Shown piece after piece: positions 10,728-27,657 of a stretch of 34,077 nt of DNA. Numbering within the stretch: position 1 is the stretch's first letter; the number at the start of each line of letters is the position of its first letter. The position numbers and the translations under genes were made by a program. The stretch is from an uncultured bacterium (GTDB lineage Bacteria; Patescibacteriota; Minisyncoccia; Phycocordibacterales; PALSA-1337), in the NCBI GenBank assembly GCA_903846945.1, contig CAINCE010000047.1, forward strand, positions 1 to 34,077. Reading direction: 5' to 3'. Below the pieces are notes generated by a model, which saw only the letters and a program-made list of their open reading frames with translations, searched no databases and had not been told where the DNA came from.

Positions 10728-11867
10728 TTACTTACTCCAAGGTACCAACATACCACCCTTCATCACCTGAACAACAGTATTCGTATCCTGCACAACATGA
10801 TCAGCCGTAAATGTGATCGTACTATTCGGCGTGGTGAATGTATTATTCGCAATATATGCCGCAACTCCTGACACATCGCCGGCACTATCACTCGTAGCAT
10901 TAGCAATTCCCTGCGCCATGACATACAGTGCGTCGAAGTATTTGTCAGCAGATTTCGTTGGTGGGATACCATACTCATTCTGATATAGAGCAGTGAACTG
11001 CGGTGAGGTAATCTCCCAATTCAATACAACGACATTGTTGAGCAAGCTCTTGTCAGCCTCGCTCGCGAATGCATCTAGAATACCATTGTAGGAAATGATC
11101 GTAGGAGCAAATCCCAACTGTTTCGCCTGACGCAAGAAGATGAGTGGATCATTTGCCACCATGTCTAGGAAAACCGTATCAACATTTTCACCTTTCAATT
11201 TGATGATCGTCGTTTTAAAATCATTGTTACCGATCTGATTATACGGTTCATCGATGACACCACCACGACCGAGACCCTTCATAACACCATCTAATGTCTT
11301 CTCTATCTCTCCACCAAAAGTAGACTTAAAATGAACGACTGCTAGTTTCTTTACCGGACTTGCCGCTAGATACGGCTGTAATTTCGATATGGTCTTATTG
11401 AAATCAGTGAGCATAACGAAGCTCTGATCATTCAAGTCAAATCCGCCAACTATCCTGAAGTTTGAAGGTGAGATGAATGCTATCTTATTGGTTAGGGCAA
11501 GAGGAATTAGTGGTTGCGCTGTAAAATCAAATACTCCGCCAATGATCCCTTGTACATGATTGACGCTGACCAATTTATTGAATGCCGAAACGCCTTGCTT
11601 TGGATCCGTATGATCATCCTCTATGACGACTTCAACTTTTCTACCATTTATGCCACCGGCATCATTTATCGCCTTTACAGCTAGATTGATTCCATTTTTC
11701 CCATATTCACCCCAAGGCGCAGCGTCCCCAGTTAGCGATAAAACAGCACCTATTTTAATAGGTCTAATATTTGATTGATTACGGTTCGAACTACCCGAAG
11801 CCGCGAGTGCAACGACGATCAATACTATGATGACTCCAATCACTAACCAAAGATATTTCTTATTCAT
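10728..11867 (-). CDS. LivK-like ABC transporter substrate-binding protein
   Basis: IKIGAVLSLTGDAAPWGEYGKNGINLAVKAINDAGGINGRKVEVVIEDDHTDPKQGVSAFNKL; N-terminal TM anchor. Confidence 0.93.
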   Translation of the reverse strand: MNKKYLWLVIGVIIVLIVVALAASGSSNRNQSNIRPIKIGAVLSLTGDAAPWGEYGKNGINLAVKAINDAGGINGRKVEVVIEDDHTDPKQGVSAFNKLVSVNHVQGIIGGVFDFTAQPLIPLALTNKIAFISPSNFRIVGGFDLNDQSFVMLTDFNKTISKLQPYLAASPVKKLAVVHFKSTFGGEIEKTLDGVMKGLGRGGVIDEPYNQIGNNDFKTTIIKLKGENVDTVFLDMVANDPLIFLRQAKQLGFAPTIISYNGILDAFASEADKSLLNNVVVLNWEITSPQFTALYQNEYGIPPTKSADKYFDALYVMAQGIANATSDSAGDVSGVAAYIANNTFTTPNSTITFTADHVVQDTNTVVQVMKGGMLVPWSK

Positions 11868-12032
11868 ATATGTAATTTAATGGGCCGGTTGTAATGTCAG
11901 GATTGGGCCGTAATTCCTATACCCTAATCCCTATCCCCTATACCCTCTTGTAATAATGACTTGCATCTATATTACACCAATGTTAATCTTTGTACATAAT
12001 TCGGCGAAAAGCGAATAATACATAAACACAGC

Positions 12033-12797
12033 ATGAATACAGCCTTTCTGGACATATTCGGATTACCACCCAAGTCAAAACGAGTTCTATTGGACGTGAT
12101 AGCACAAGGTATATCATCTGTAGCAGTGATATCAAGGCGCCTAAATATGCCCAAGTCATCCGTCTATGATGCTGTCATTCCCCTATTGGAGCAAAGCCTC
12201 ATAAACGAGTACAGCGATAACCGCGGCAAAACATTTGGCATATCAGACAGTGGACAACTCACTCGTGCACACAAGGAGAAGATGGATGAACTGCAGAAGG
12301 CACAGACTTCCCTGCTATCCTTCATCAGTCATAACCATGGAGACAATACCGTCGCCAAACCAACGGTTAAGTTTTACTCTGGCAATCTAGGCATCAAGCA
12401 AGCCTTTAGAGATATACCATGGCAGAAAGATATCACCGAAACTTTCATGGTCTGGCCGACGAGAGACATGATCGACATAGACGAAGAGTTCTTCAAATGG
12501 CATGGCACTCAACGTTTCAAATACAACGTCTTCATATACGCTATAGAGAAGCATGCTGACCGAGCTATTCAAAGAGGCACCAAACATGAGTGGCTGAAGA
12601 ATGACAAGAAGAATCTAGTCAGCGTCAGATATCTCCCCAAAGGCGTTGACTGCAAGATGTCCTTTTGGCTCTACGGCAACAAATGTCTGTTTGCCTCTAG
12701 TGGAGCCGAGAAGATAGCATTCACCGTTCACAGCCGAGAGTTCTGCGAGATGATGAAGCTGCTTTGGAAGAGTATGTGGAATGAGTCGAAGAAATAA
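12033..12797 (+). CDS. TrmB-like HTH transcriptional regulator
   Basis: N-terminal wHTH (GISSVAVISRRLNMPKSSVYDAVIPLLEQSLINEY) plus C-terminal sensor-like domain; divergent from an SBP gene. Confidence 0.75.
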   Translation: MNTAFLDIFGLPPKSKRVLLDVIAQGISSVAVISRRLNMPKSSVYDAVIPLLEQSLINEYSDNRGKTFGISDSGQLTRAHKEKMDELQKAQTSLLSFISHNHGDNTVAKPTVKFYSGNLGIKQAFRDIPWQKDITETFMVWPTRDMIDIDEEFFKWHGTQRFKYNVFIYAIEKHADRAIQRGTKHEWLKNDKKNLVSVRYLPKGVDCKMSFWLYGNKCLFASSGAEKIAFTVHSREFCEMMKLLWKSMWNESKK

Positions 12798-12798
12798 C

Positions 12799-12830
12799 AA
12801 AGGCCTGGAGTTAAGTTCCAGACCTTTATT
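12799..12830. terminator. bidirectional terminator hairpin between convergent genes
   Basis: AAAGGCCTGGA gttaag TTCCAGACCTTTATT. Confidence 0.7.
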
Positions 12831-12852
12831 AAAGTAGATCATTATCTAATGA

Positions 12853-13932
12853 TTATAGATTCACTATCTTCCCTCCCTTAATAACTTTCATCTGTGTCTC
12901 TGGAAGTCTATTACCTGTAGAACCAAACTTTATCTGACCGCTAACCCCTTGGAAATTCGCATTCTTCATATTAGCAACCCAAGTCGCCTTGTCTGGTGAA
13001 TATGTTTGTACGAGCAGGTTAAATGAATCGTAGCCGATATCAGATAGGAATGGTGCATCAGTTCCATAGCGAGCCTTGTATGCATCTTTGTAAGCTTGTG
13101 TATCGTCGAGTTTCATACCACCAACAATACTGCCATTGAGCACATTGAGATCGCCCATGATTCGTTGATAGTCTGGATAGCCTGAAATAAAACTCGTGTC
13201 GAAGAATATCGTCGGCTTGTTTTTCACAATCTTCAAGAACTCTTTCATGAATTGTGCACCTTGCTGTGGGAACATAAATATTCCCACCGCGGCAGGATTG
13301 CCAGACGTAGCTTTCAACGCATGAGTACGGAAATCAGTCTCAGCAGAATCAATGATGATATCAGTCGTCTTGCCTTGGAAACCTTCCTTGAAAGCAGCGA
13401 CGAAACGGATCATGGCATCGATATTCGTGTAAACTAGTGTCATTTGAGTGAATCCTTTACTCTTCATATATGCACCATAGTCTCTCTCCGAAGCGATACT
13501 ATCTGGATATATTCCAAATACATTATCATCTGTTGGCACACGTCCCTGCTCTCCACCTTGAGCCACTGGGATACCGAGCTTTGTGACAGAATCATAGATA
13601 GCGTCTATCGAAGCGGTTGAGACATTTATGAGAGCGTCTATCTTGTCTACATTAACCAGCTTCTGATATGCACTCACAGCTTTACCACCAGAAAAACCGT
13701 CGTCTTCGATGATCATCGTGATAGGCGCATCTGGATGAGCTGCGTTGTATTGTTCCTGGGCCAAGACAGATCCATTTCTAAAGTTCTCACCTACTGCAGC
13801 ATATTCACCTGACAAGATACTGATCAATCCTAGATTGAGACTTTTCGCGGGTGTAGATTTCTTCGTTCCGTAGTAAACACCACCTATTATGACGAGAACC
13901 ACTATAACTATTGCCCAAATGTATTTTTTCAT
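12853..13932 (-). CDS. LivK-like ABC transporter substrate-binding protein
   Basis: LNLGLISILSGEYAAVGENFRNGSVLAQEQYNAAHPDAPITMIIEDDGFSGGKAVSAYQKLVNVDKIDALI; N-terminal TM anchor. Confidence 0.92.
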   Translation of the reverse strand: MKKYIWAIVIVVLVIIGGVYYGTKKSTPAKSLNLGLISILSGEYAAVGENFRNGSVLAQEQYNAAHPDAPITMIIEDDGFSGGKAVSAYQKLVNVDKIDALINVSTASIDAIYDSVTKLGIPVAQGGEQGRVPTDDNVFGIYPDSIASERDYGAYMKSKGFTQMTLVYTNIDAMIRFVAAFKEGFQGKTTDIIIDSAETDFRTHALKATSGNPAAVGIFMFPQQGAQFMKEFLKIVKNKPTIFFDTSFISGYPDYQRIMGDLNVLNGSIVGGMKLDDTQAYKDAYKARYGTDAPFLSDIGYDSFNLLVQTYSPDKATWVANMKNANFQGVSGQIKFGSTGNRLPETQMKVIKGGKIVNL

Positions 13933-14123
13933 AATAATAACTATTGTAAATTATGTTAATGCAACTAGAATAACCTATATTTCCTCACCTGGCAAATAAC
14001 ATTATAATTTGTGGACACCCAAATATTTCAATATATGCCTCATTATATAGATATTTTTGATTTTGCGTAGATAAGTTATCAAAAATATTGACTATTTCTA
14101 AAAACCAATGTAGTATGCCGATT

Positions 14124-14864
14124 ATGGACAACCCCCTAATATCAGGACTAACAAATCTTGGCTTAAATGAAAAACAAGCCCAGGTCTATTTAGCGTTACT
14201 AAAACTCGGAAAAGGTTCTGCATATGCCATATCTGAGCAATCAGGTCTGAAGAAACCGACTACATATGTCATATTAAATGAGCTCATAGAAAAGGGCGCT
14301 GCACAGCTCATTCCAAAAGTTGCCAAGAGACTATACAAACCTGTACCACCAGAGACGCTTATAAACAACGCGGAACAGCGTATGAGCGAAGCCAAACAAC
14401 TGCTACCCGCCTTGAAATCTATCGTTACCACCAAACCAGACAAGATCAACGTTCTTCACTATGAAGGCTTAAAGGCTTACAAGGAAGCTTTATACTACAG
14501 GATTGACGAGTGTGTAAACAAGGAGATAGTTGGCTTTTACGCACAGGCTAGTGACATGTCACCCAAACTCCTGGCTATATGCGAAGAATACAACACCTTT
14601 TGTGCGAAGAACAATATAGTAAACAAGACATTCGTGCCAGATCATCCATCACTTACCAATTTTCGAAAGACTGACGAACTATTCAAAAGAGTCACGCAAG
14701 TACTTCCCTATGATATCTATTCATCCTCTGTTTCTATCGATACATTCTCCGATATAGTCAGGATCGTATTGAACAAGAACAATCAGATGGTCATCATTGA
14801 AAACAAGGAATTCGCGAAGACCATACGAGAGATATTTGACATGTTATGGATGAGTCATCATTGA
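14124..14864 (+). CDS. TrmB-like HTH transcriptional regulator
   Basis: LTNLGLNEKQAQVYLALLKLGKGSAYAISEQSGLKKPTTYVILNELIEKGAAQ (TrmB wHTH); the tool start at 14088 is the TTG of a -35 box (TTGACT-17-TAGTAT), so MDNPL is the likelier start. Confidence 0.88.
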   Translation: MDNPLISGLTNLGLNEKQAQVYLALLKLGKGSAYAISEQSGLKKPTTYVILNELIEKGAAQLIPKVAKRLYKPVPPETLINNAEQRMSEAKQLLPALKSIVTTKPDKINVLHYEGLKAYKEALYYRIDECVNKEIVGFYAQASDMSPKLLAICEEYNTFCAKNNIVNKTFVPDHPSLTNFRKTDELFKRVTQVLPYDIYSSSVSIDTFSDIVRIVLNKNNQMVIIENKEFAKTIREIFDMLWMSHH

Positions 14865-14996
14865 TATTACGACTCATTTTGTAACTATTAGAATGCAAAT
14901 TCGCTCAAATCGCCTTGCACTACCCAATACTTTATGCTGTAATACTCAACGGACTTCGACAACCACAAACCTCTAACCAAGAAAGGAAGTTTAGTT

Positions 14997-15410
14997 ATGA
15001 CTTCGATACCAGTTACAGATCTCCAAGGTCACCAACTCAGCAAGTTCGGCTTCGTTCATGTCACAGGACTTTCGATGGAAATATTCGAGGGGGGTGCACT
15101 AACCGCCAAATGCCTGCTCGCCAGCCAGGCAGATTGCAGACGTTTCTCCATCCACTACGATACACTCTTTGTCGTGACAGAAAATGGTGAGATCTGGGTC
15201 CACCAACTCCAGCATGACGATCCGATAACACACGACATGTATTACATACAGCTGGAAGCACTTCTCTGCCCTCTTGGTGAAGGAAAAGCCATCATTGCAG
15301 ATCCTTGGCGGATCAACTATCTGTCCACATACGATATACTGACTCGCCTCGCTGATCCAACATGGAACGAAACGGTCGGAGGCTTCCCCCTCGTACGGAC
15401 GAGAGATTAA
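14997..15410 (+). CDS. hypothetical protein
   Basis: 137 aa with AAGGAAG upstream and a terminator downstream; no family recognised. Confidence 0.6.
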   Translation: MTSIPVTDLQGHQLSKFGFVHVTGLSMEIFEGGALTAKCLLASQADCRRFSIHYDTLFVVTENGEIWVHQLQHDDPITHDMYYIQLEALLCPLGEGKAIIADPWRINYLSTYDILTRLADPTWNETVGGFPLVRTRD

Positions 15411-15444
15411 CAAGGTTAGCCGAGAGAGCTCCTTTCTTTCATAC

Positions 15445-15475
15445 AAAAGCGCATTGATTTCCCAGTGCGCTTTTT
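15445..15475. terminator. bidirectional Rho-independent terminator
   Basis: AAAAGCGCA ttgatttcccag TGCGCTTTTT. Confidence 0.85.
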
Positions 15476-15492
15476 CTATTTTACAAGTGAGA

Positions 15493-16622
15493 TTACTGAT
15501 CCTGGGCAATTTGTACCGCGCCATCTTTTACGATAAACAATGTGTACACTGCTCCATTCCTATCATTATTCCCATCAAAGCTGATCTCCCCACCGGCCCC
15601 GTTATACTTAACAGTATTGAGATACGATCTGATCTTTGCAACATCTTCCCCATTTACTTTTAACGCCTCCGCGATCAGATGGATAGTATCGTATGTCTCG
15701 ACACAAACAGTCGTCTGAGGACAATCTTGTCCATATGTATCTTTGTACATTTTCAAAATCAAATCTGTCTGACTATTACTAGGAGCTACATAATTCGCCC
15801 CGAGTGCACCGTCCAGGATATCCTTGTGCTTCATGACCAAGTCTTTCGATATAGTGACATTGTCGTTTACGAGCAATCTCGGTCTGAAGTTCAGATCCTC
15901 CATCTGTTTGAGTACTACTTCAGCACTCGTCACTGTCTGAGGATTTATGAGCAATATATCCAACTTCTCAGATTTCAGTTTCGTAAGTTGCGTCCTTACA
16001 TCAGTTGTTCCTGTTGGAAACGATTCACTCATAACGGTGATGCCAGAATCTTTAAGGAAATTATCTAGGTTGATCTTGATACCTTTCGCATAATCAGTTT
16101 CCTCATATATAACCCCGACTTTTTTGTAACCAGCTTGTATGATCTTATCCGCGAACAATCTTGACTCATTTATATCAGATCCCCAGTTTCGGAATATGTA
16201 CTGAGATATGCCCGTGAGTTTGGCCCCCGACAATACATCCGACACAAACAAAGCATTCCCATCCGTTAACATAGGAGCTAAGCTCGCCATGGTTCCTGTG
16301 CAGGCGGCAGAGGTAAATATCTTTACACCATCAACAGAATTTAACTGTTGAAAAGCGGCCACAGCAGTCTTCGGATCACATTTATGATCCTGAAAGTCTA
16401 TCTCAAATTTCTTTCCGTTTATACCCCCCCATTAATGATCTCCGTTACAACCATCTGTGCGGTTTTTTGAGACGGTTCGCCGTATGTTACTAACCCACCA
16501 GTAAGTGGATATAGTGCACCAATCTTGATAGTTCCTGTATCTCCTCGTTTTGAACTGATCCCTGCGATAAGTATGACGACAACCACTATCCCAACTACTG
16601 TCCAAACAATTTTTTTGTTCAT
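15493..16622 (-). pseudogene. LivK-like substrate-binding protein, frameshifted at a G7 homopolymer
   Basis: N-terminal ORF 16419-16622 (IKIGALYPLTGGLVTYGEPSQKTAQMVVTEIINGGV*) and C-terminal ORF 15493-16362+; adding one G at 16424-16430 joins them as INGGGINGKKFEIDFQDHKCDPKTAVAAFQQL. Confidence 0.9.
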
Positions 16623-16832
16623 AGATATTTTGCCGAATATATTATTAACTTCCTAATACTACAACTTAAATAATGCCCTCGCAATATTGACTCAACTCAC
16701 CCCTCTGATACAATTCCCCTATTCAGATCGTAGGATTTTTCTCTGACCTCAATCAAACACCATAATATTTCACTCATCGGATCTGACGGTGGGTCTATTT
16801 ACTAATAATATTATTAACTAATCAACAATTAT

Positions 16833-17696
16833 ATGGACAAAGCACTAGACACAATACAAAAGAACCTAGAATCTATTAAGCGCGTATCAAATGATGATCA
16901 CCCCATGGAATTCTGGTCAGCTCGTGACCTCATGCCGATGTTGGGGTACACGAAATGGCAGAAATTTACAGAGGTAATAGAAAGAGCCAAGGCAGCTTGT
17001 AAATTGAGTGGTCAGAACATAGATGATCATGTTACCGGCGCCGGTAAGATGATAGCTACGGGAAAAGGTGCCACGCGTAAAATCGAGGATTTCTTCCTCA
17101 CCAGATATGCCTTTTACCTCATTGCCCAAAACGGCGATCCACGCAAACCGGAGATAGCTCTTGCACAAACATATTTCGCCACACAGACTCGCAAGCAGGA
17201 ATTACTCGAACAACGAGATATGGAATCAAAACGCCTCGATGCACGAGCAAAGCTCCGAGAGACAGAGAGTAAGATAGAGTCTACAGTATATGAGAGGGGT
17301 ATAAAATATCCTGTAGAATTTGCAACCTTCAAGAACAAACATATCGAAGCGCTATACGGAGGTATTTCTGCAAGTCAGCTCAAAAAGATCCGAAAGATTC
17401 CTCCGAAAAGATCTCTGGCGGACTTTGATAGCCATGTAGAACTCAAAGCAAAGGATTTTGCATTGGCGATGACAGACCATAATATCAAAGAGAAAGATAT
17501 TCGAGGTAAGGAGGCGATGAACACAGAAGTCGTCAAGAATAGTAGAGAGACACGCCAGGCACTGCTAAATAGAGGCATCAAACCTGAGCACATAAAACCA
17601 GAAGAGGACCTAAAGTTAGTCGAGTCCAGAAAGAATAAGGAAGCTAAACGGATTGCCGGAAAGGCAAACACGCCAAACCGAAGGCTACTGAAATAG
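16833..17696 (+). CDS. dinD: DNA damage-inducible protein D-like (BRO-N/DinD)
   Basis: FWSARDLMPMLGYTKWQKFTEVIERAKAACKLSG ... DFFLTRYAFYLIAQNGDPRKPEIALAQTYFATQTRKQEL, hallmark DinD sequence. Confidence 0.9.
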   Translation: MDKALDTIQKNLESIKRVSNDDHPMEFWSARDLMPMLGYTKWQKFTEVIERAKAACKLSGQNIDDHVTGAGKMIATGKGATRKIEDFFLTRYAFYLIAQNGDPRKPEIALAQTYFATQTRKQELLEQRDMESKRLDARAKLRETESKIESTVYERGIKYPVEFATFKNKHIEALYGGISASQLKKIRKIPPKRSLADFDSHVELKAKDFALAMTDHNIKEKDIRGKEAMNTEVVKNSRETRQALLNRGIKPEHIKPEEDLKLVESRKNKEAKRIAGKANTPNRRLLK

Positions 17697-17774
17697 TTTA
17701 CAACCTATATTACTTCACCACTCCTCCGCTCACGCTTCGGAGGTCGAGAAAGGTTCGGGAGGGCAAGCAAACAA

Positions 17775-18641
17775 TTATAATCTGTACTCTCCAACAAGTC
17801 CTTGTGGCCTATAGAGCATGAGTAGTATCAATATAACACCATAAGTCACCTGCCTCATCTGTGCTGCGATATCACTCGGGAAACCGACGAAGCGCAAGAT
17901 CTCTGGCAACAATATGAGACAGACTGCTCCGAGAACAGCTCCTTTGTTGTTCGCCAAACCTCCTAGGATGATAACGGCGAGGATGAAGATGGACTCCGTC
18001 AAAGTGAATGATGATGGATCGATAAATGTTATATAGCTCGCGAAGAGTGACCCAGCAACAGCAGCCATACCAGCAGAGATGACGAAGATAGCTAGCTTGT
18101 ACCAGAGTGTTCTGTATCCAAAGACGGATATAGCTTCTTCATCTTCGCGAATGGCTTTCAATACGCGACCAAATGATGAAGTGGTAATAAATCTACATAG
18201 GAAATATATAGTCCCCAAAATGACCACTGACAAAACTAGAAACCAGATGTTCTCAGAAAATGTGAACCCAAATAATGATGGTCGTGGAATTCCAGGGATG
18301 CCGAGTGGTCCACGGGTTAGTGACTGCCAATTCAGGAATATGCTGTAGATAATCACATTGAAACCAAACGAGCCCAGTGCATAATAGTCATCTTTGAATT
18401 TGGAAAGTACGAAGCCGATCGCTAGGCTAATTATTGCCGTAATGACGATTCCGAGTAACATCGCCAAGAAAAAATTCATACCTGTCGAAGTGAGCAGTAT
18501 CGCAGTGACGTACGCACCGATGCCATAAAATGCCGCCTGCGTTACAGAGAGCAATCCGGTGAATCCTACAACCAAGTTCAGTGACAGCCCGAGGATGCCG
18601 TAGATGGAGATCAGTATTGCGATGTGTATGAGGTATTCCAT
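17775..18641 (-). CDS. livM: branched-chain amino acid ABC transporter permease LivM-like
   Basis: LSLNLVVGFTGLLSVTQAAFYGIGAYVTAIL ... GRVLKAIREDEEAISVFG ... YITFIDPSSFTLTESIFILAVIILGGLANNKGAVLGA. Confidence 0.95.
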   Translation of the reverse strand: MEYLIHIAILISIYGILGLSLNLVVGFTGLLSVTQAAFYGIGAYVTAILLTSTGMNFFLAMLLGIVITAIISLAIGFVLSKFKDDYYALGSFGFNVIIYSIFLNWQSLTRGPLGIPGIPRPSLFGFTFSENIWFLVLSVVILGTIYFLCRFITTSSFGRVLKAIREDEEAISVFGYRTLWYKLAIFVISAGMAAVAGSLFASYITFIDPSSFTLTESIFILAVIILGGLANNKGAVLGAVCLILLPEILRFVGFPSDIAAQMRQVTYGVILILLMLYRPQGLVGEYRL

Positions 18642-18683
18642 GTTTAGAAATTAGGTAATTAGAAATTAGAAATTGAAGTCATT

Positions 18684-19550
18684 TTATCTTCGTAGAATTC
18701 CTTGAGGTCTGAACAACAAAAATATTATCAAGACCCCGAACGCTATCGCATCCTTCCATTCCCCAGATATCTGCCAGATACCAAAGTTCTCTATGAACCC
18801 CAGTAGGAATGCGCCGAGAACGCCACCGTAAACATTACCGATACCACCGATGATCGACGCGATCACACCCTTGAGTAACAACGACAATCCCATCGTCGGC
18901 TCTATTCCCGTATCGAATCCTACCAGGATTCCAGCCAAACCCGCTATAGCAGACCCCAAGAAGAATACCCAGCCGATAACTCTCACAGTATTGATACCGA
19001 CGATCTTCGATACTTCTTCATCGTCCCCTACCGCTTTGATAGCTTTGCCGAACAGTGTATATCGGAACATGAGGCCGATAGCAACCATGATGACTATTCC
19101 CAATACGAGAATGATGAGTTGTGTCTGTGTGATCACTCCGCCAAATATATTGTATACCGCTTCGCTGCCAGCACTGCGTGAGAGTGTCTGGAATTGGCTG
19201 GTAAATAGGATAGCGACTATTGATTGCACTGCTGTCATCACTCCGAGTGCAGCAACGAGCAATACCATGCCTGATGACTTTCTGGCCCGTAGTGGTGCGT
19301 AGACGAGTCTGTAGATGAGTAAACCGATAGCGCCAGAGATCAGAATGCCGAGAATGATGGCAATGTATAGATTTAGCCCTATTCCCTTGTAGAAATAAAA
19401 TACCGTATAACCTCCGACAGCAGCTAGTGCCCCATATCCTAGATCAAAGAATTTGGTCGTGCCATAGATGAGATTGAAACCGAGTGCGACCATACTGTAG
19501 ATCGCTCCGGCGATGATGCTGTTTACGATGAGTTGCGGGATGATGTCCAT
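18684..19550 (-). CDS. livH: branched-chain amino acid ABC transporter permease LivH-like
   Basis: IIAGAIYSMVALGFNLIYGTTKFFDLGYGALAAVGGYTVFYF ... GKAIKAVGDDEEVSKIVGIN ... GVIASIIGGIGNVYGGVLGAFLLGFIEN. Confidence 0.95.
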   Translation of the reverse strand: MDIIPQLIVNSIIAGAIYSMVALGFNLIYGTTKFFDLGYGALAAVGGYTVFYFYKGIGLNLYIAIILGILISGAIGLLIYRLVYAPLRARKSSGMVLLVAALGVMTAVQSIVAILFTSQFQTLSRSAGSEAVYNIFGGVITQTQLIILVLGIVIMVAIGLMFRYTLFGKAIKAVGDDEEVSKIVGINTVRVIGWVFFLGSAIAGLAGILVGFDTGIEPTMGLSLLLKGVIASIIGGIGNVYGGVLGAFLLGFIENFGIWQISGEWKDAIAFGVLIIFLLFRPQGILRR

Positions 19551-19682
19551 GGGATGTAACAGTCACAAGTATAGCCATAAATCGTCAATTTGGAAACATA
19601 CAGAACACATACAGAACACATACAAGCCAAACATAATGGCCAACAACCGTGCGAATAGGTGTCAATAACGGCCATCACCTTC

Positions 19683-19784
19683 ACCTTCCTCTCGAGGGGG
19701 TACAAAAGTTGACCAACTTTTGGTCAACTTTACTAGGTAGGCAGAAACATGTCCCTAACCCGCCCAACTTGCCCCCTCCTGACT
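19683..19784. repeat. 102-bp direct repeat, copy A, containing palindrome copy 3 (19705-19731)
   Basis: ACCTTCCTCtCGAGGGGG..TACAAAAGTTGACCAACTTTTGGTCAACTTTACTAGGTAGGCAGAAACATGTCCCTAACCCGCCCAACTTGCCCC..GACT, nearly identical to 21949-22050. Confidence 0.95.
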
Positions 19785-19808
19785 TCCGCACGCCACCCCA
19801 CCTTCCGA

Positions 19809-20951
19809 CTACGGTGTTATCGTAACTGGCACGCCGTTCTTGATCATACGGACAACAGCTTTCGAAGCTACTAGATGGTCGCTACCCATACTCATACCTG
19901 TACCGAGCGCACCATCGAAACCTTTTATACTCCCAATTCTAGCATTTATCTCAGTCCCCTTAGGAACAGTTATACCATCACCAGCCTTTTCAACAGATTG
20001 AACGATCATGTTCAATGTGTCGTAACCATTTGCTGCACCGAATTTCGGTGCCGTGCCATAGGTTTTGGTATAGAGATCCACGAACCACTGAGCTGCATCT
20101 GCACAATTCACATACCACATACCTTCGAACAGCGATAGTTGATCTGAGAACTCAAATGTCTCCATGGTACTTACGGGAGTTTTAACTCCAGCAGTACGCA
20201 ACTGCTTGGTTACTGTCTCTAGTTCTGGTGATGATAACTCTAGTACATATAGATTAGCCCCGAGGTTTTTCACTTTACTGATCTCTGTCCTGAAGTCTCT
20301 AGTCCCCGTGACTATCATCTGTGTTGAGAGCACCTGGATATTTGTTAACTTAACACCATCTAGAAATGCATTGATGAGAGCGGCTGAACCAGGATTGTCT
20401 TGCTGACCGAAGAAGACAATCTTATTTATGCCGCGTCTTTGCAATTCCTGGACGAATAACTTTGCATCCTCTGATGCAGGAGTATAGTCAACATAATTGT
20501 ACTGACCAGTCGCAACATGCGGATCCGATGCAAAGTCGTTGATATGTGGAACTCCTGCCGCCTCCGCTATAGGACTTACCACATTACCGACTGGAGAGCC
20601 AAATGAGATGAGAGCATCAACCTTATCAACACTGATGAGCTTATTTGCCGTCGTCGCGCCGATAGAAGGCTTGAAACCATCATCCTCGAATACGAGTTTA
20701 TAATCATACTTCAGATTTGTCTTATCCAGCTGACTATAGGCGAGCTCTATAGCATTCTTATTACTTTGACCGAGCATTGCCACATCTCCAGTGAGAGGCA
20801 ATGTTACACCTATTATAACCGTCGGTTTGGAACCTGTTTGACCAACATGGCTAACCCCCAATAATCCACCACTTTTAGCTAATATACCTATAATACTAGC
20901 CAAAATCACGATACCTATAACCCCTAACATGATCCTTGTTGTTTTTGTCAT
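19809..20951 (-). CDS. LivK-like ABC transporter substrate-binding protein
   Basis: VIIGVTLPLTGDVAMLGQSNKNAIELAYSQLDKTNLKYDYKLVFEDDGFKPSIGATTANKLISVDKVDALISFGSPVGNVVSPIAE; N-terminal TM anchor. Confidence 0.93.
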   Translation of the reverse strand: MTKTTRIMLGVIGIVILASIIGILAKSGGLLGVSHVGQTGSKPTVIIGVTLPLTGDVAMLGQSNKNAIELAYSQLDKTNLKYDYKLVFEDDGFKPSIGATTANKLISVDKVDALISFGSPVGNVVSPIAEAAGVPHINDFASDPHVATGQYNYVDYTPASEDAKLFVQELQRRGINKIVFFGQQDNPGSAALINAFLDGVKLTNIQVLSTQMIVTGTRDFRTEISKVKNLGANLYVLELSSPELETVTKQLRTAGVKTPVSTMETFEFSDQLSLFEGMWYVNCADAAQWFVDLYTKTYGTAPKFGAANGYDTLNMIVQSVEKAGDGITVPKGTEINARIGSIKGFDGALGTGMSMGSDHLVASKAVVRMIKNGVPVTITP

Positions 20952-22058: not shown

Positions 22059-25000
22059 CTACACCCCCAACTTTATCTGCAATCCACCAATATTTTGGAA
22101 TTCACCTTCTACAGTAGCAAACTCAATTCCCCTTAATGAAGTCGCCGCAGAGATCTCACTTCTATACTTCTCCACAAAAGCCCTGCCCTCATCATTCGTC
22201 TCGATCTTGAGACTAACCTTGTCATTCACGGTGAAGCCTCTATCTTTGCGCATATCCTGAACAGCACGAATGAGCTCGCGAACAACACCTTCTTCACGGA
22301 GCTCTGGGGATATAGTCGTATCCAGTTCTACTTCCGTCGATAATGTTGCATTGAAGTCAACTTCTTTGACATTAACCTCGTCTCTGACCAAGTGAACAAA
22401 TTCAGCATCCCCATGGATCGTACCAATCCCCACCTTACCGACCTTCAGCTTTTGTAGCGGCTGTCTGACATTTATCTTGGCTTTCATGCGCGCTTCCAGC
22501 CCTCTAGATGAAACTTCGCGAACGACTCTCATATTTACCAGCAGCTCTCCTTCCACTTTGCCAGCAGTTGGCCACATTTCGAGATGAACACTCTCCAATT
22601 CACCACTCATCCTACTATAGATATCCTCAGCCAAGAACGGCATGAACGGAGCGATCAATTTGGCAATCTCCAACAATACGAACATAGTTGTCTCCAATGC
22701 GAACTTTTTATCAACCATGTCACCACTCTTGAACCTGTCTCGTGATCGTCGCAGATACCAAGTAGACAGATCATCAGTGAGATCCATGAACGGTCTCGTC
22801 GCACGATCGAGTTCCCCTGCTTCCAGAGCTTTCGTAACTAGCGAGATAGTTTCATTGAGTCTAGAAACGATCCATCTGTCTAGAACATTGGTACTCGTAG
22901 CATTACCGACAGAGTCGCTCGCCACACTATTCTCACTATACATCTCATAGAAAGAAACCACATTCAACAATCTATTTAGCAATTTCTTTGTCACTTCATC
23001 AACACCTCTCTCACTGAAACAGAGATCTTGACCATGAACTACGGGGGACGACAACAGATAATATCGGAGAGAATCAGCTCCATACTTTTCCACTATTCCC
23101 ATCGGATCGGGATAATTTTGCTTGCGCTTGGACATCTTTTCACCGTCTTCAGCCAATACGAGACCGTTCACAACTACTTTCTTGTATGGAGTCTTGCCGA
23201 ACAATGCAACACCGAGAACCATCATCGAGTAGAACCATCCGCGAGTCTGATCCAGTCCTTCTGCGATAAAGTCAGCAGGAAAACCTATAGACTTCTTTAA
23301 CAATCCCGGATGCGGCTCGAACTTGTCACGATTTTCGAAAGGATGATGCTCCGAGGCGTACGGCATAGACCCAGATTCGAACCAGCAGTCAAATACATCC
23401 GGAACTCTGACCAACTTATTCCCCTCCTTTGTCATCAACTGCACCTCATCGATGAATGGTCTATGTAGGTCGAGCTCATAGTCAGTGTTGTGTGGCAATG
23501 GTACGAAATCGAGCTTTCTAACTTCGGCATTCTTCATAAAATCTCCAACTAGACGCAGTGATTTTGCACTCTCTATATCCATCCCCATAGCCGCAGCACA
23601 GAGCAACATTGCTGGTGTCTCATGAGTAACAACTAGTATATTCTTACCTTCATATTTTCCCTCTATATCATAGAGGAATTCTCCGGTACGCTTCTTTATA
23701 TCCATATAATCCTCCCCTCCCTCAGGTCTCCATAACCAACGATCTGACGCTGTGTGTGCACGACCTAGTTCCGCAACACTCTTGCCCTGAAATACGCCAG
23801 GGTTGTATTCTGCTATGCGATTATCAACTATTAGTTTATCGTCACCCAAGCCGAGTGCGATTTTCACCATCTCTGCGGTTTCTTTTGTGCGCAATATTGG
23901 CGAGACGAAAATGAGATCAATCTTCAATGACCTCAATTCCTTCACTGCGCCAGCCACCTGCTCTCTACCTTTTTCTGTAAGGTGATGAGTCGTAGTCACA
24001 CTAGAATCCAATACATTCAATGTATTATTCTCCGCCTCGCCATGTCTCATCACATGATAATTATTCTTGGCGTGACTATATTTCCTCAGATCTTCTACGG
24101 AACCTATACAATGAACGCCACTCTCGTTGACTAGTTCACTTCCTACTCCGGGATCCTGAATCTTTTCTTCCCTCCATACAGGTATCGGCGCTCCCCAAAA
24201 CCTAGACCGAGATATCGCCCAATCCCTTGCACCCTCTAGCCAATTACCAAATCTCCCCTCACCGACTTCGGGTGGCACCCATGTAACCTTCTTGTTCTCA
24301 GAGACTAGCTTGTCCTTGATATCTGTTACTTTCACGAACCACGATGAAGTAGCGTAGTTGAGCAACGGCGTATCGCATCGCCAACAATGAGGATATGAGT
24401 GAACTAACTTTTCTTTACTAAATAGCTTGCCCCCATGCGCTAGCCATTTGATGATCTCGATATCAGTTTTTTGGTGAGCATCTTTTTCTGCATCAGTATC
24501 CTTGGGTTTTACATGTAAACCAGCAAAATCAGTAACTTCACTCTTGAATACACCGTCCATGGTTACATGCTGGACGAATGGCAGACTATTTACCTTCATG
24601 AGATCATAGTCATCTGCACCGAATGCTGGCGCGATATGTACGATACCAGTTCCATCCTCTGTCGTGACGAATCCTGCCGCATATACCTGCCATCCATTCT
24701 CATGATTTTTTAATTTCTGGTTTTTTGAATAATGATCGAAGAGTGGTTGATATCGTTTTCCTACCAGATCAGCACCTTTGAATTCCTCGACACTTTCATA
24801 CTGAGTATCTTTCAAAACCGACAAGCGAGATTTAGCCAGAATGAAATATTCATTGGCGATCTTGACCTTCGTATATTCGATATCCTTCCCTACTGCCAAG
24901 GCGACGTTTCCTGGTAGAGTCCACGGAGTAGTCGTCCATGCCAAGAGATATGTATCTGCCACATCCAGAACTCTGAATTTGACGGTGACAGATATATCAG

Positions 25001-25700
25001 TTATATCCTTGTAACCTTGTGCCACTTCAAAGTTTGATAGGGTAGTTTCGCACCTAGGACATAGATTCATCGATTTGAATCCTTCATAGATGAGTCCCTT
25101 ATCATGGAGTTGCTTGAATATCCACCAGACACTCTCAGTATATGTTGCGTCCATCGTTCGGTAGTCGTCTTCCATATCCACCCAGCGACCTAGTCGAGGA
25201 ACTATCGCGCGCCATTCATCTGCATAACGCATCACACTCTCCTTGGCAGCAGCATTGAATCTGTCTATACCATAAGTAACGATGTCTTTTTTTGATTTCA
25301 ATTGGAGCTCTTTTTCTATCAGATTCTCTACCGGCAATCCATGACAGTCCCACCCCCATTTCCTAGGAACATGATATCCTTGCATCGTTTTGAATCTCGG
25401 CACTACATCCTTGATCACTCCCGCCAAGATATGCCCGTAGTGAGGCAAGCCATTGGCAAATGGAGGACCATCATAGAATATATATTCCCCCTTCGGAGAC
25501 TTCCTTTCCAAAGTCTTTTCGAATATCCCCTTCTCCTTCCAATACGCCAATATCTTCTCCTCGCGTAATGCGTGCGGAGTTTTAGAAGTTATCGGCGTAG
25601 TCACTGGTGATCCTGTAGGGTCTGTCGACTTTACAGGCTTTGCGGGTTTTGTCGATTTTGCGGGTTCCATATTGTCTATATTATCTATTTGTTCAGCCAT
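22059..25700 (-). CDS. ileS: isoleucyl-tRNA synthetase with an inserted histidine phosphatase (phosphoglycerate-mutase-like) domain
   Basis: 1213 aa; YDGPPFANGLPHYGHILAGVIKDVVPRFKTMQGY (HIGH region), GIVHIAPAFGADDYDL, EKMSKRKQNYPDP (KMSKS); inserted RHGEAENN...SPILRTKETAEM...VVTHETPAML at about 23500-24066. Confidence 0.96.
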   Translation of the reverse strand: MAEQIDNIDNMEPAKSTKPAKPVKSTDPTGSPVTTPITSKTPHALREEKILAYWKEKGIFEKTLERKSPKGEYIFYDGPPFANGLPHYGHILAGVIKDVVPRFKTMQGYHVPRKWGWDCHGLPVENLIEKELQLKSKKDIVTYGIDRFNAAAKESVMRYADEWRAIVPRLGRWVDMEDDYRTMDATYTESVWWIFKQLHDKGLIYEGFKSMNLCPRCETTLSNFEVAQGYKDITDISVTVKFRVLDVADTYLLAWTTTPWTLPGNVALAVGKDIEYTKVKIANEYFILAKSRLSVLKDTQYESVEEFKGADLVGKRYQPLFDHYSKNQKLKNHENGWQVYAAGFVTTEDGTGIVHIAPAFGADDYDLMKVNSLPFVQHVTMDGVFKSEVTDFAGLHVKPKDTDAEKDAHQKTDIEIIKWLAHGGKLFSKEKLVHSYPHCWRCDTPLLNYATSSWFVKVTDIKDKLVSENKKVTWVPPEVGEGRFGNWLEGARDWAISRSRFWGAPIPVWREEKIQDPGVGSELVNESGVHCIGSVEDLRKYSHAKNNYHVMRHGEAENNTLNVLDSSVTTTHHLTEKGREQVAGAVKELRSLKIDLIFVSPILRTKETAEMVKIALGLGDDKLIVDNRIAEYNPGVFQGKSVAELGRAHTASDRWLWRPEGGEDYMDIKKRTGEFLYDIEGKYEGKNILVVTHETPAMLLCAAAMGMDIESAKSLRLVGDFMKNAEVRKLDFVPLPHNTDYELDLHRPFIDEVQLMTKEGNKLVRVPDVFDCWFESGSMPYASEHHPFENRDKFEPHPGLLKKSIGFPADFIAEGLDQTRGWFYSMMVLGVALFGKTPYKKVVVNGLVLAEDGEKMSKRKQNYPDPMGIVEKYGADSLRYYLLSSPVVHGQDLCFSERGVDEVTKKLLNRLLNVVSFYEMYSENSVASDSVGNATSTNVLDRWIVSRLNETISLVTKALEAGELDRATRPFMDLTDDLSTWYLRRSRDRFKSGDMVDKKFALETTMFVLLEIAKLIAPFMPFLAEDIYSRMSGELESVHLEMWPTAGKVEGELLVNMRVVREVSSRGLEARMKAKINVRQPLQKLKVGKVGIGTIHGDAEFVHLVRDEVNVKEVDFNATLSTEVELDTTISPELREEGVVRELIRAVQDMRKDRGFTVNDKVSLKIETNDEGRAFVEKYRSEISAATSLRGIEFATVEGEFQNIGGLQIKLGV

Positions 25701-25743: not shown

Positions 25744-27657
25744 TTACATCTTCTTTGGCACCTCTATCCCTAGCAACCACAATCCTCGTGTCATCGTCGT
25801 GAGAAATGCGCGAACCAACTCTACTCTGTAAGCCGTCAATAGGTCTTTCTCATCGATGATCGTCTGGTTTGCATAGAACGCATTGAATGCGCCCGCCAAC
25901 TGAACTAGATAACCTGCAACATGCTGAGGTGCATACTCTACCCTAGCTCGTTCCACAATATCTGGGAAACGCACGATCAATTTTTCGAGAAGACCAACAG
26001 TTTCTGGTAATTTCATATCGGACTTTGCAGAAGTTGCGGAAGTTGCAGAAAACTTGGAAGTTTTGGAAGTCCCGGAAAATGTACCACCTCCCACCTTCTC
26101 CAATACAGAAGCAGCTCTAACTGCCGAATACTGCAGATATGGTCCCGAATCCCCTTCGAATGAGATAGACGCAGCTGAGTCAAAAACAACATTGCCACCT
26201 ATAGCCTGTCGCAATATCGTGTACTTCACCGCACCGACGGCGATCATGTCAGCGATCTCTCCCACATCATCAGCCGAGAAATCCCTCCCAGCGACCTTTT
26301 CCATAACCATTTTCTTTATATCCCCGATGAGTGCATCCGCCGTCACGACATTACCCGTCCTCGATGACATCTTCCCCTCTGCAAATCGTAGCATTCCATG
26401 GCCGATATGCATGGTTTTGCCACCATTTTTCGCGTCTATCAACGAAAATACTTTGGTAAGCACTTTGAAATAGTCATTCTGTTCATTGGCTGTAATTATT
26501 ATAGATTGCACCGTGTCTGGAAACTTCTCAAATTTTGTAACATTGAGTCCAACATCCTTGGTCTCATAAGTCGGCAATCCGCGGGAATTGATAAATACTC
26601 GAGTATGCAGTCCATATTCCTCACCTTTGAACACGATAGCACCGTCACTTTCTTCAAAAACTCCAGAAATATCACTCGTCCCATCGTTCAATAGTTCCTT
26701 TGTAGAATTGTTCAATTCTGAATCAATAGTACTTTCAACTTTTTCCTTGCCTCTGATATTCTCCTTAACGATCTTCAGTCCCACAGGTGCCATCTCAGAC
26801 TCAAATATCGTCATATCGAACTTGGTCCCCAGCAACTCATATAGCAGATCAAAATGTTCTAGACTCCATTCCCTACCTTTGTCGTATAGATCATTCACAG
26901 CATCATCAGATCGGTCATATATAGCCTGATTCAACTCATCGATCTCATTTTTCACCAATGGATCTGCATCGTATGCATTGGTACCCTCGACATACATCTT
27001 CCCCAAGAATGCCGTTCTCTCCTCTATAGGAGCCGCTTCCGAAGGAATTTCGTCCAGATGCTGTTCCATAGCCCAGATAGATTTCGCGATATGGAGACCG
27101 ATATCAGATGGATAGCAGATGCGTACAACCTTTGTGCCAGTATTTTCGATCAATCGAGAGATAGACTCTCCTATAGTATTAGACATGATATGACCGATAT
27201 GGAATGCCTTGAATGTGTTTGGATCGGTGTATTCGATGAGGACTTGCTCAGACTCTCCTTTTGAGCTAGATTGCCTCGTCGACTTTTCCCCAAATAGTTG
27301 GTGACTTGACTGGTTTAAAGATGTCCCTTTGAGCGACTTTTCATTTGAACTGCTTTCTGATAGACCAACGACACCCAATACCTCCTTCGCAAACACTTCA
27401 TCCTTCAATTTGAAATTGATAAATCCAGGACCCGCCACAGATATTTCTTTTATAAAATCAGCCAAATTCAATTCCGCAACGACCTTCTCCGCCAACTCTT
27501 TTGGTGATAATCCCAATTGCTTTGCATAAGCTAGTGCCACATTTGTCGAAAAGTCTCCATGTTCTGGGACTTCTGGATAATCCAACTTTACCACAGGATC
27601 TGATATACCAACTTTCTGCACAGCCGTTTCGATAAGTGAGATTATTTTCTGTTTCAT
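25744..27657 (-). CDS. argS: arginyl-tRNA synthetase
   Basis: VLIEYTDPNTFKAFHIGHIMSNTIGESISRLIENTGTKVVRICYPSDIGLHIAKSIWAM; C-terminal DALR-type region. Confidence 0.96.
   Translation of the reverse strand: MKQKIISLIETAVQKVGISDPVVKLDYPEVPEHGDFSTNVALAYAKQLGLSPKELAEKVVAELNLADFIKEISVAGPGFINFKLKDEVFAKEVLGVVGLSESSSNEKSLKGTSLNQSSHQLFGEKSTRQSSSKGESEQVLIEYTDPNTFKAFHIGHIMSNTIGESISRLIENTGTKVVRICYPSDIGLHIAKSIWAMEQHLDEIPSEAAPIEERTAFLGKMYVEGTNAYDADPLVKNEIDELNQAIYDRSDDAVNDLYDKGREWSLEHFDLLYELLGTKFDMTIFESEMAPVGLKIVKENIRGKEKVESTIDSELNNSTKELLNDGTSDISGVFEESDGAIVFKGEEYGLHTRVFINSRGLPTYETKDVGLNVTKFEKFPDTVQSIIITANEQNDYFKVLTKVFSLIDAKNGGKTMHIGHGMLRFAEGKMSSRTGNVVTADALIGDIKKMVMEKVAGRDFSADDVGEIADMIAVGAVKYTILRQAIGGNVVFDSAASISFEGDSGPYLQYSAVRAASVLEKVGGGTFSGTSKTSKFSATSATSAKSDMKLPETVGLLEKLIVRFPDIVERARVEYAPQHVAGYLVQLAGAFNAFYANQTIIDEKDLLTAYRVELVRAFLTTMTRGLWLLGIEVPKKM

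Follow-up and report, generated by a model that had tools for sequence, protein, structure and literature searches.

A histidine-phosphatase domain nested in the isoleucyl-tRNA synthetase of Patescibacteria: a candidate bifunctional enzyme

The isoleucyl-tRNA synthetase (IleRS) of an uncultured member of the Patescibacteria contains, within its class-I catalytic domain, a histidine-phosphatase (HP) domain with a complete set of catalytic residues. The gene lies in the window, i.e. the whole 34,077-nucleotide stretch of DNA analysed here (contig CAINCE010000047.1). We infer that the nested domain is active as a phosphomonoesterase and is coupled to charging, and we give about even chances to the full reading of the protein as a bifunctional IleRS with an active tethered phosphomonoesterase coupled to isoleucyl-tRNA synthesis. 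An apparently active second enzyme kept by IleRS across much of the class suggests an undescribed link between phosphate chemistry and charging.

The host synthetase

The gene ileS (P0001, 22059..25700, minus strand) is a single uninterrupted ORF coding for 1213 aa, assigned by its reading frame, Pfam and NCBIfam. Its sequence identifies the product as an IleRS by the score against the NCBIfam ileS family (TIGR00392, 889.9 bits, above the cut-off of 621.4), by the HIGH-type motif HYGH (aa 87-90, 25431..25442, minus strand) and the KMSKS-type motif KMSKR (aa 855-859, 23124..23138, minus strand) and by an anticodon-binding domain. Pfam matched the class-I catalytic domain tRNA-synt_1 in two parts, one at 24120..25553 and the other at 23034..23468 (both minus strand), the latter restarting immediately past the insert, and also Anticodon_1 and DUF5915. 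The AlphaFold2 model of residues 40-1213 is a confident single-body fold (mean pLDDT 91.5, pTM 0.86), and the Foldseek matches of the entire model were type-2 and eukaryotic IleRSs. The host had been called a type-2 IleRS in an earlier note made from the sequence alone, and both the whole-chain fold and the sequence matches agree with this.

The gene immediately upstream is argS (25744..27657, minus strand, by Pfam). The genome that holds the window amounts to 0.98 Mb in 77 contigs and has two further PF00300 genes besides the nested HP. The region adjoining ileS (10728-20951) contains four Peripla_BP_6 periplasmic binding protein genes and a permease of the branched-chain amino-acid type, which together look like a cluster for the uptake of branched-chain amino acids, here in a genome of very small size.

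The nested domain

The insert, delimited by a profile of homologous inserts, covers aa 545-743 (23472..24068, minus strand) and is 199 aa long, located between IGSVEDL and DLHRPFID (site A below). The earlier note had placed an HP domain here, in one frame with the IleRS and at 23500-24066, bounds that are correct to about 30 bases. Pfam splits tRNA-synt_1 around His_Phos_1 (PF00300, aa 550-732, 23505-24053, E 1.1e-30), which scores 107 bits where the cut-off is 21.7. The spacing from WG.P.P to CWFESG is about 62-79 residues in most of the IleRSs that have no insert and about 250-276 in those that carry it. The GC content of the insert is 43.7%, that of the remainder of ileS 45.2%.

All the catalytic residues of branch-1 histidine phosphatases are present in the insert, as the earlier note had seen, and they were compared in an alignment of 55 homologous inserts. 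They are R552 and H553 of the RHG motif (24042..24047), invariant in the 55 homologues and with the histidine as the predicted phosphoryl acceptor, the second arginine R604 in SPILRT (23889..23891), E631 as the predicted acid/base (23808..23810) and the second histidine H693 in VTHE (23622..23624), all on the minus strand. Modelled alone, the insert gives a PGM-like alpha/beta fold (AlphaFold2 pLDDT 95.4, pTM 0.92), which answers the objection that no such fold might be predicted. Foldseek top matches were all HPs (TM about 0.77), and they are small-molecule enzymes such as glucosyl-3-phosphoglycerate phosphatase, PspA and PhoE. By motif and predicted fold the insert thus belongs to branch 1 of the histidine phosphatase superfamily. 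None of the NCBIfam HP equivalogs (CobC, GpmB, PspA, SixA and archaeal dPGM) reached its cut-off with the insert, the nearest scores being 84.9 of 225 for dPGM_arch, 75.5 of 162.9 for CobC and 33.3 of 74.5 for SixA, so that no substrate can be named from them.

A misassembly of two genes had also been raised as an objection. The same in-frame insert is present across dozens of independent genomes, ruling out misassembly or a chance origin.

Conservation of the active site

The five catalytic positions (R, H, R, E/D, H) are intact in 97 of 97 copies at site A and in 15 of 15 at the other three IleRS sites (B, C and D), that is, in all 112 IleRS-nested copies examined. In the 55-insert alignment R, H, R, E and H are all invariant, and the catalytic positions are among the few columns of this kind at a mean identity of about 36-39%. 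Retention of five residues is hard to explain other than by catalysis, and a pseudo-enzyme is ruled out for the IleRS copies. The catalytic competence predicted in the earlier note is strengthened by this conservation and by the fold recovered with AlphaFold2 and Foldseek, and it stays a prediction from sequences and models. The residues are also intact in 7 of 9 copies nested in valyl-tRNA synthetases (ValRSs) and in 21 of 25 standalone HPs. Of the ValRS exceptions, one has the second histidine replaced by serine (L104:955-3933) and the other has serine at the acidic position (L158:2207-5512).

Insertion sites and other nested enzymes

Phylum-wide searches followed by site mapping located HPs at four sites of IleRS. 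Site A is flanked by the (I)GS..EL element and by DLHRPFID, site B lies immediately ahead of the R.PEV.DCWFESG stretch, site C in the stretch from CWFESG to PADFIAEG and site D at the junction of the catalytic and anticodon domains. Ten IleRSs have HPs at both A and B, and one IleRS of 1572 aa (L149:2167-6882) has three, at B, C and D, with the catalytic residues intact in all of them. Nine HP domains were found in eight ValRSs, in the region equivalent to A/B, one of these proteins having two. Other enzymes share these hosts: a ValRS of 1277 aa (L152:1827-5657) nests HAD, serine-hydrolase and HP domains, and one IleRS (L141:3138-7490) combines a GNAT acetyltransferase, located at site C, with an HP located at site D.

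The choice of hosts is narrow. In 59 genomes across the phylum, all the HPs found in ORFs longer than 300 aa sit in IleRS or ValRS, and random insertion into large proteins is unsupported by this survey. It was done with PF00300 to escape the bias of a profile derived from IleRS, and the hosts were classified separately. None of the 34 leucyl-tRNA synthetases (LeuRSs) scanned had an HP, which excludes the domain as a feature of all class-Ia synthetases. The nested domains in these 34 LeuRSs were Nudix (21), serine-hydrolase (7) and HAD (4), and the Nudix-box consensus was present in about 20 of them. In the genus of the window the LeuRSs (L198, L199, L200, L201, L202, L203 and L204) are 1007-1539 aa long, and nested in them are as many as three Nudix domains as well as serine-hydrolase and HAD domains. 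No Nudix domain was found in 37 IleRSs, 35 of which had an HP; this set was drawn largely from HP carriers, hence only the Nudix absence is informative. Since LeuRSs of the same genus have Nudix domains, one may also ask what leads such small genomes to place enzymes inside their synthetases. Separately, three proteins of 437-462 aa (L159, L160 and L161) have a C-terminal HP, preceded in the one scanned (L160) by a membrane VTT (DedA-type) domain.

Separate genes beside ileS

Among the standalone HPs, those closest to the insert adjoin ileS. At four loci (L163, L261, L262 and L263) the order argS-HP-ileS is found on the same strand, the HP and ileS frames overlap and the ileS has no insert. 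At another (L265) argS and HP are followed by a gap of 0.85 kb and then ileS, and at L264 the HP is located about 1.1 kb ahead of the gene that precedes ileS. One insert-like standalone HP, in genome G213, lies away from ileS. As a control, 18 less similar standalone HPs were inspected, with no ArgRS, IleRS, LeuRS or ValRS in the few kb fetched around each. In the HP tree, four ileS-adjacent HPs grouped with two nested ones and with that of G213 (support 96), indicating that the nested and separate states have been interchanged. A phosphatase either nested or encoded beside ileS points to an undescribed connection with protein synthesis, and the existence of two natural states makes the function accessible to ordinary biochemistry. 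At one more locus, a standalone HP gene (L268:5399-6043) is located immediately upstream of a gene assigned by eye as aspartyl-tRNA synthetase-like.

Distribution and evolutionary history

The insert was present in every IleRS read from a set of 40 closely related genomes, from the same genus or order, and is absent from that of G296, a member of the order of the window. The class was sampled with 113 genomes of at least 90% completeness, and 77 of these have an HP detected by the insert profile in an ORF of at least 700 aa, a count made by frame length with the individual ORFs unclassified. Across the phylum, profile searches found the insert to be patchy. Its absence from many IleRSs of the phylum, and from some within the order such as G296, indicates that it is dispensable for aminoacylation. 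The scan for relatives was queried with six peptides of the window's IleRS and reaches close relatives only; almost every named relative with the insert is listed under Patescibacteria, Paceibacterota, Parcubacteria or one of their subgroups. Outside the Patescibacteria the view is confined to a few IleRSs: two loci titled Alphaproteobacteria and Acidimicrobiia (L056 and L057) have an IleRS without insert, and the solved IleRSs do not match it.

Mapped on the IleRS-core tree, the site-A label requires at least 8 changes, 7 of them forced by well-supported branches. In the HP trees the copies from site A, site B, site D and ValRS split into several groups. All these trees were built by a quick method, and the HP trees have many poorly supported branches, leaving the number of separate acquisitions uncertain. 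The different sites and hosts imply different insertion events, and as judged from these sequences the HP domain is repeatedly gained and lost. Over 85 site-A proteins (mean identity 36% for the HP and 48% for the IleRS core) the HP and IleRS distances were correlated (Mantel r 0.51, none of 2000 permutations as high), a correlation that we count as suggesting co-inheritance of both parts.

Possible function of the nested phosphatase

The window's IleRS would be a bifunctional enzyme, a type-2 IleRS with a catalytically active PhoE/PspA/CobC-like HP in its connective region. The nested HP would apply the usual two-step phosphohistidine mechanism to a small phosphomonoester, and its activity would be functionally tied to the charging of isoleucine tRNA (in some lineages valine tRNA). 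In this mechanism a terminal phosphoryl group is moved to the histidine of RHG. Ile-AMP, Val-AMP and Ap4A, which the earlier note had considered, are unlikely substrates because they do not offer a simple terminal phosphoryl group, aminoacyl-adenylates and Ap4A being a poor fit to the established chemistry of these enzymes. AMP and further phosphomonoesters are still candidates. The tethering would serve mainly to ensure 1:1 production and co-localisation and not to hand over a substrate to the synthetic site; the existence of other positions in IleRS (site D) and of a separate gene favours co-production and co-localisation over channelling. Against the coupling speak the repeated gain and loss of the insert and the G213 copy away from ileS. 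Furthermore, since other types of enzymes are nested in the LeuRSs of the genus, a general habit of nesting fits as well as a specific coupling.

This last point leads to the main rival, in which the HP serves an unrelated metabolism and IleRS is just a constantly expressed carrier with insertion-tolerant loops, on the premise that in compact genomes small enzymes come to be nested in larger ones. We regard it as possible, although improbable. The Nudix, HAD and serine-hydrolase domains in LeuRSs, the HAD and serine-hydrolase in one ValRS and the GNAT in one IleRS are what would be expected from it, as are the variable sites of the HP inserts and their repeated gain and loss. However, a carrier of convenience does not sit well with the HPs in long ORFs of the 59-genome survey being present in IleRS and ValRS only (none in the 34 LeuRSs, with no Nudix in the 37 IleRSs), with the HP staying beside ileS where it is un-nested, or with the entry of HPs at four different IleRS sites.

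A different kind of link, which we consider unlikely, is that the HP acts directly on a molecule that the synthetase produces or binds, driving the reaction or repairing a substrate: AMP, a damaged nucleotide of the ATP site or the phosphate on a broken tRNA 3' end. AMP is released in each charging and editing cycle, and IleRS and ValRS both edit, so the output of AMP and the editing hosts would suit this proposal, as would the fact that in IleRS and ValRS alike the commonest HP site falls within the connective region of the catalytic domain. On the other hand, LeuRS also edits and had no HP in the 34 scanned, the HPs at site D or in separate genes are poorly placed for channelling, and by the established mechanism aminoacyl-adenylates and Ap4A do not have a suitable terminal phosphomonoester.

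It is even more doubtful that the HP is a protein phosphatase working in cis on the synthetase, for example undoing a kinase modification near KMSKS. HipA-type kinase toxins modify GluRS, synthetases being known targets of kinase toxins, and some members of the HP superfamily dephosphorylate phosphoproteins or phosphohistidine, precedents that make the idea conceivable; but the closest solved relatives of the insert are small-molecule phosphatases and the serine in the KMSKR of the window is the usual one. Finally, a purely structural insert, i.e. a stabiliser or surface for which catalysis is irrelevant (the scaffold of the earlier note), is very improbable: the whole protein does fold confidently as a single body (pLDDT and pTM given above) and two ValRS copies have each lost a catalytic residue (the second histidine in L104, the acidic one in L158), but the active site is fully retained in all 112 IleRS copies at a mean identity of ~35%. 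The replacement of a missing phosphoglycerate mutase by the nested HP is also unlikely, as one of the two other PF00300 genes of the genome is canonical PGM-like by eye.

Returning to the bifunctional enzyme, a tentative extension that we hold to be possible and no more than that is that the editing class-Ia synthetases of Patescibacteria could act as scaffolds, each for an active hydrolase dedicated to it, with an HP for IleRS and ValRS and a Nudix domain for LeuRS. The synthesis of branched-chain aminoacyl-tRNAs would then have an undescribed layer that controls it, cleans up after it or proofreads it.

Comparison with known systems

The best PDB sequence matches of the insert are PhoE/YhfR of Bacillus stearothermophilus (1ebb, 1h2e) and the phosphoserine phosphatase PspA of Hydrogenobacter (4ij5), with E values of 1.6e-31 and 1.7e-28 and Foldseek TM of about 0.75-0.78. 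They share with it the HP branch 1 fold and the catalytic residues. However, they are free-standing enzymes and the insert is only 24-26% identical to them; at this identity, and under the equivalog cut-offs, its substrate cannot be read from theirs. The host resembles the IleRS2 of Priestia megaterium (8c8v) and the yeast IleRS (8wnd) in the type-2 whole-chain fold and in sequence (about 30-32% identity). None of the solved IleRS structures, these two included, matches the inserted domain, and the alignment is interrupted at the insert.

A curated precedent for an IleRS with an additional enzyme domain is NCBIfam NF040702 (ileS_w_GNAT), in which the extra domain is an N-acetyltransferase, a different enzyme class. 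The window's IleRS scores 331 against its cut-off of 1999 and has no Pfam match to GNAT, and no HP counterpart of this family was among its NCBIfam matches. A full-text literature search, with most subscription papers outside its scope, found no report of an HP in a synthetase, and database annotation of HP-carrying synthetases probably exists. Synthetases with extra domains are thus already known, and it is the HP version that has no description in the literature searched.

HPs fused to an unrelated enzyme, as here, are also known from PFK-2/F2,6BPase and RNase H/CobC (PRK07238). In those metabolic or nucleic-acid enzymes the fusion is end to end, whereas the HP of the window is nested within the catalytic domain of a synthetase.
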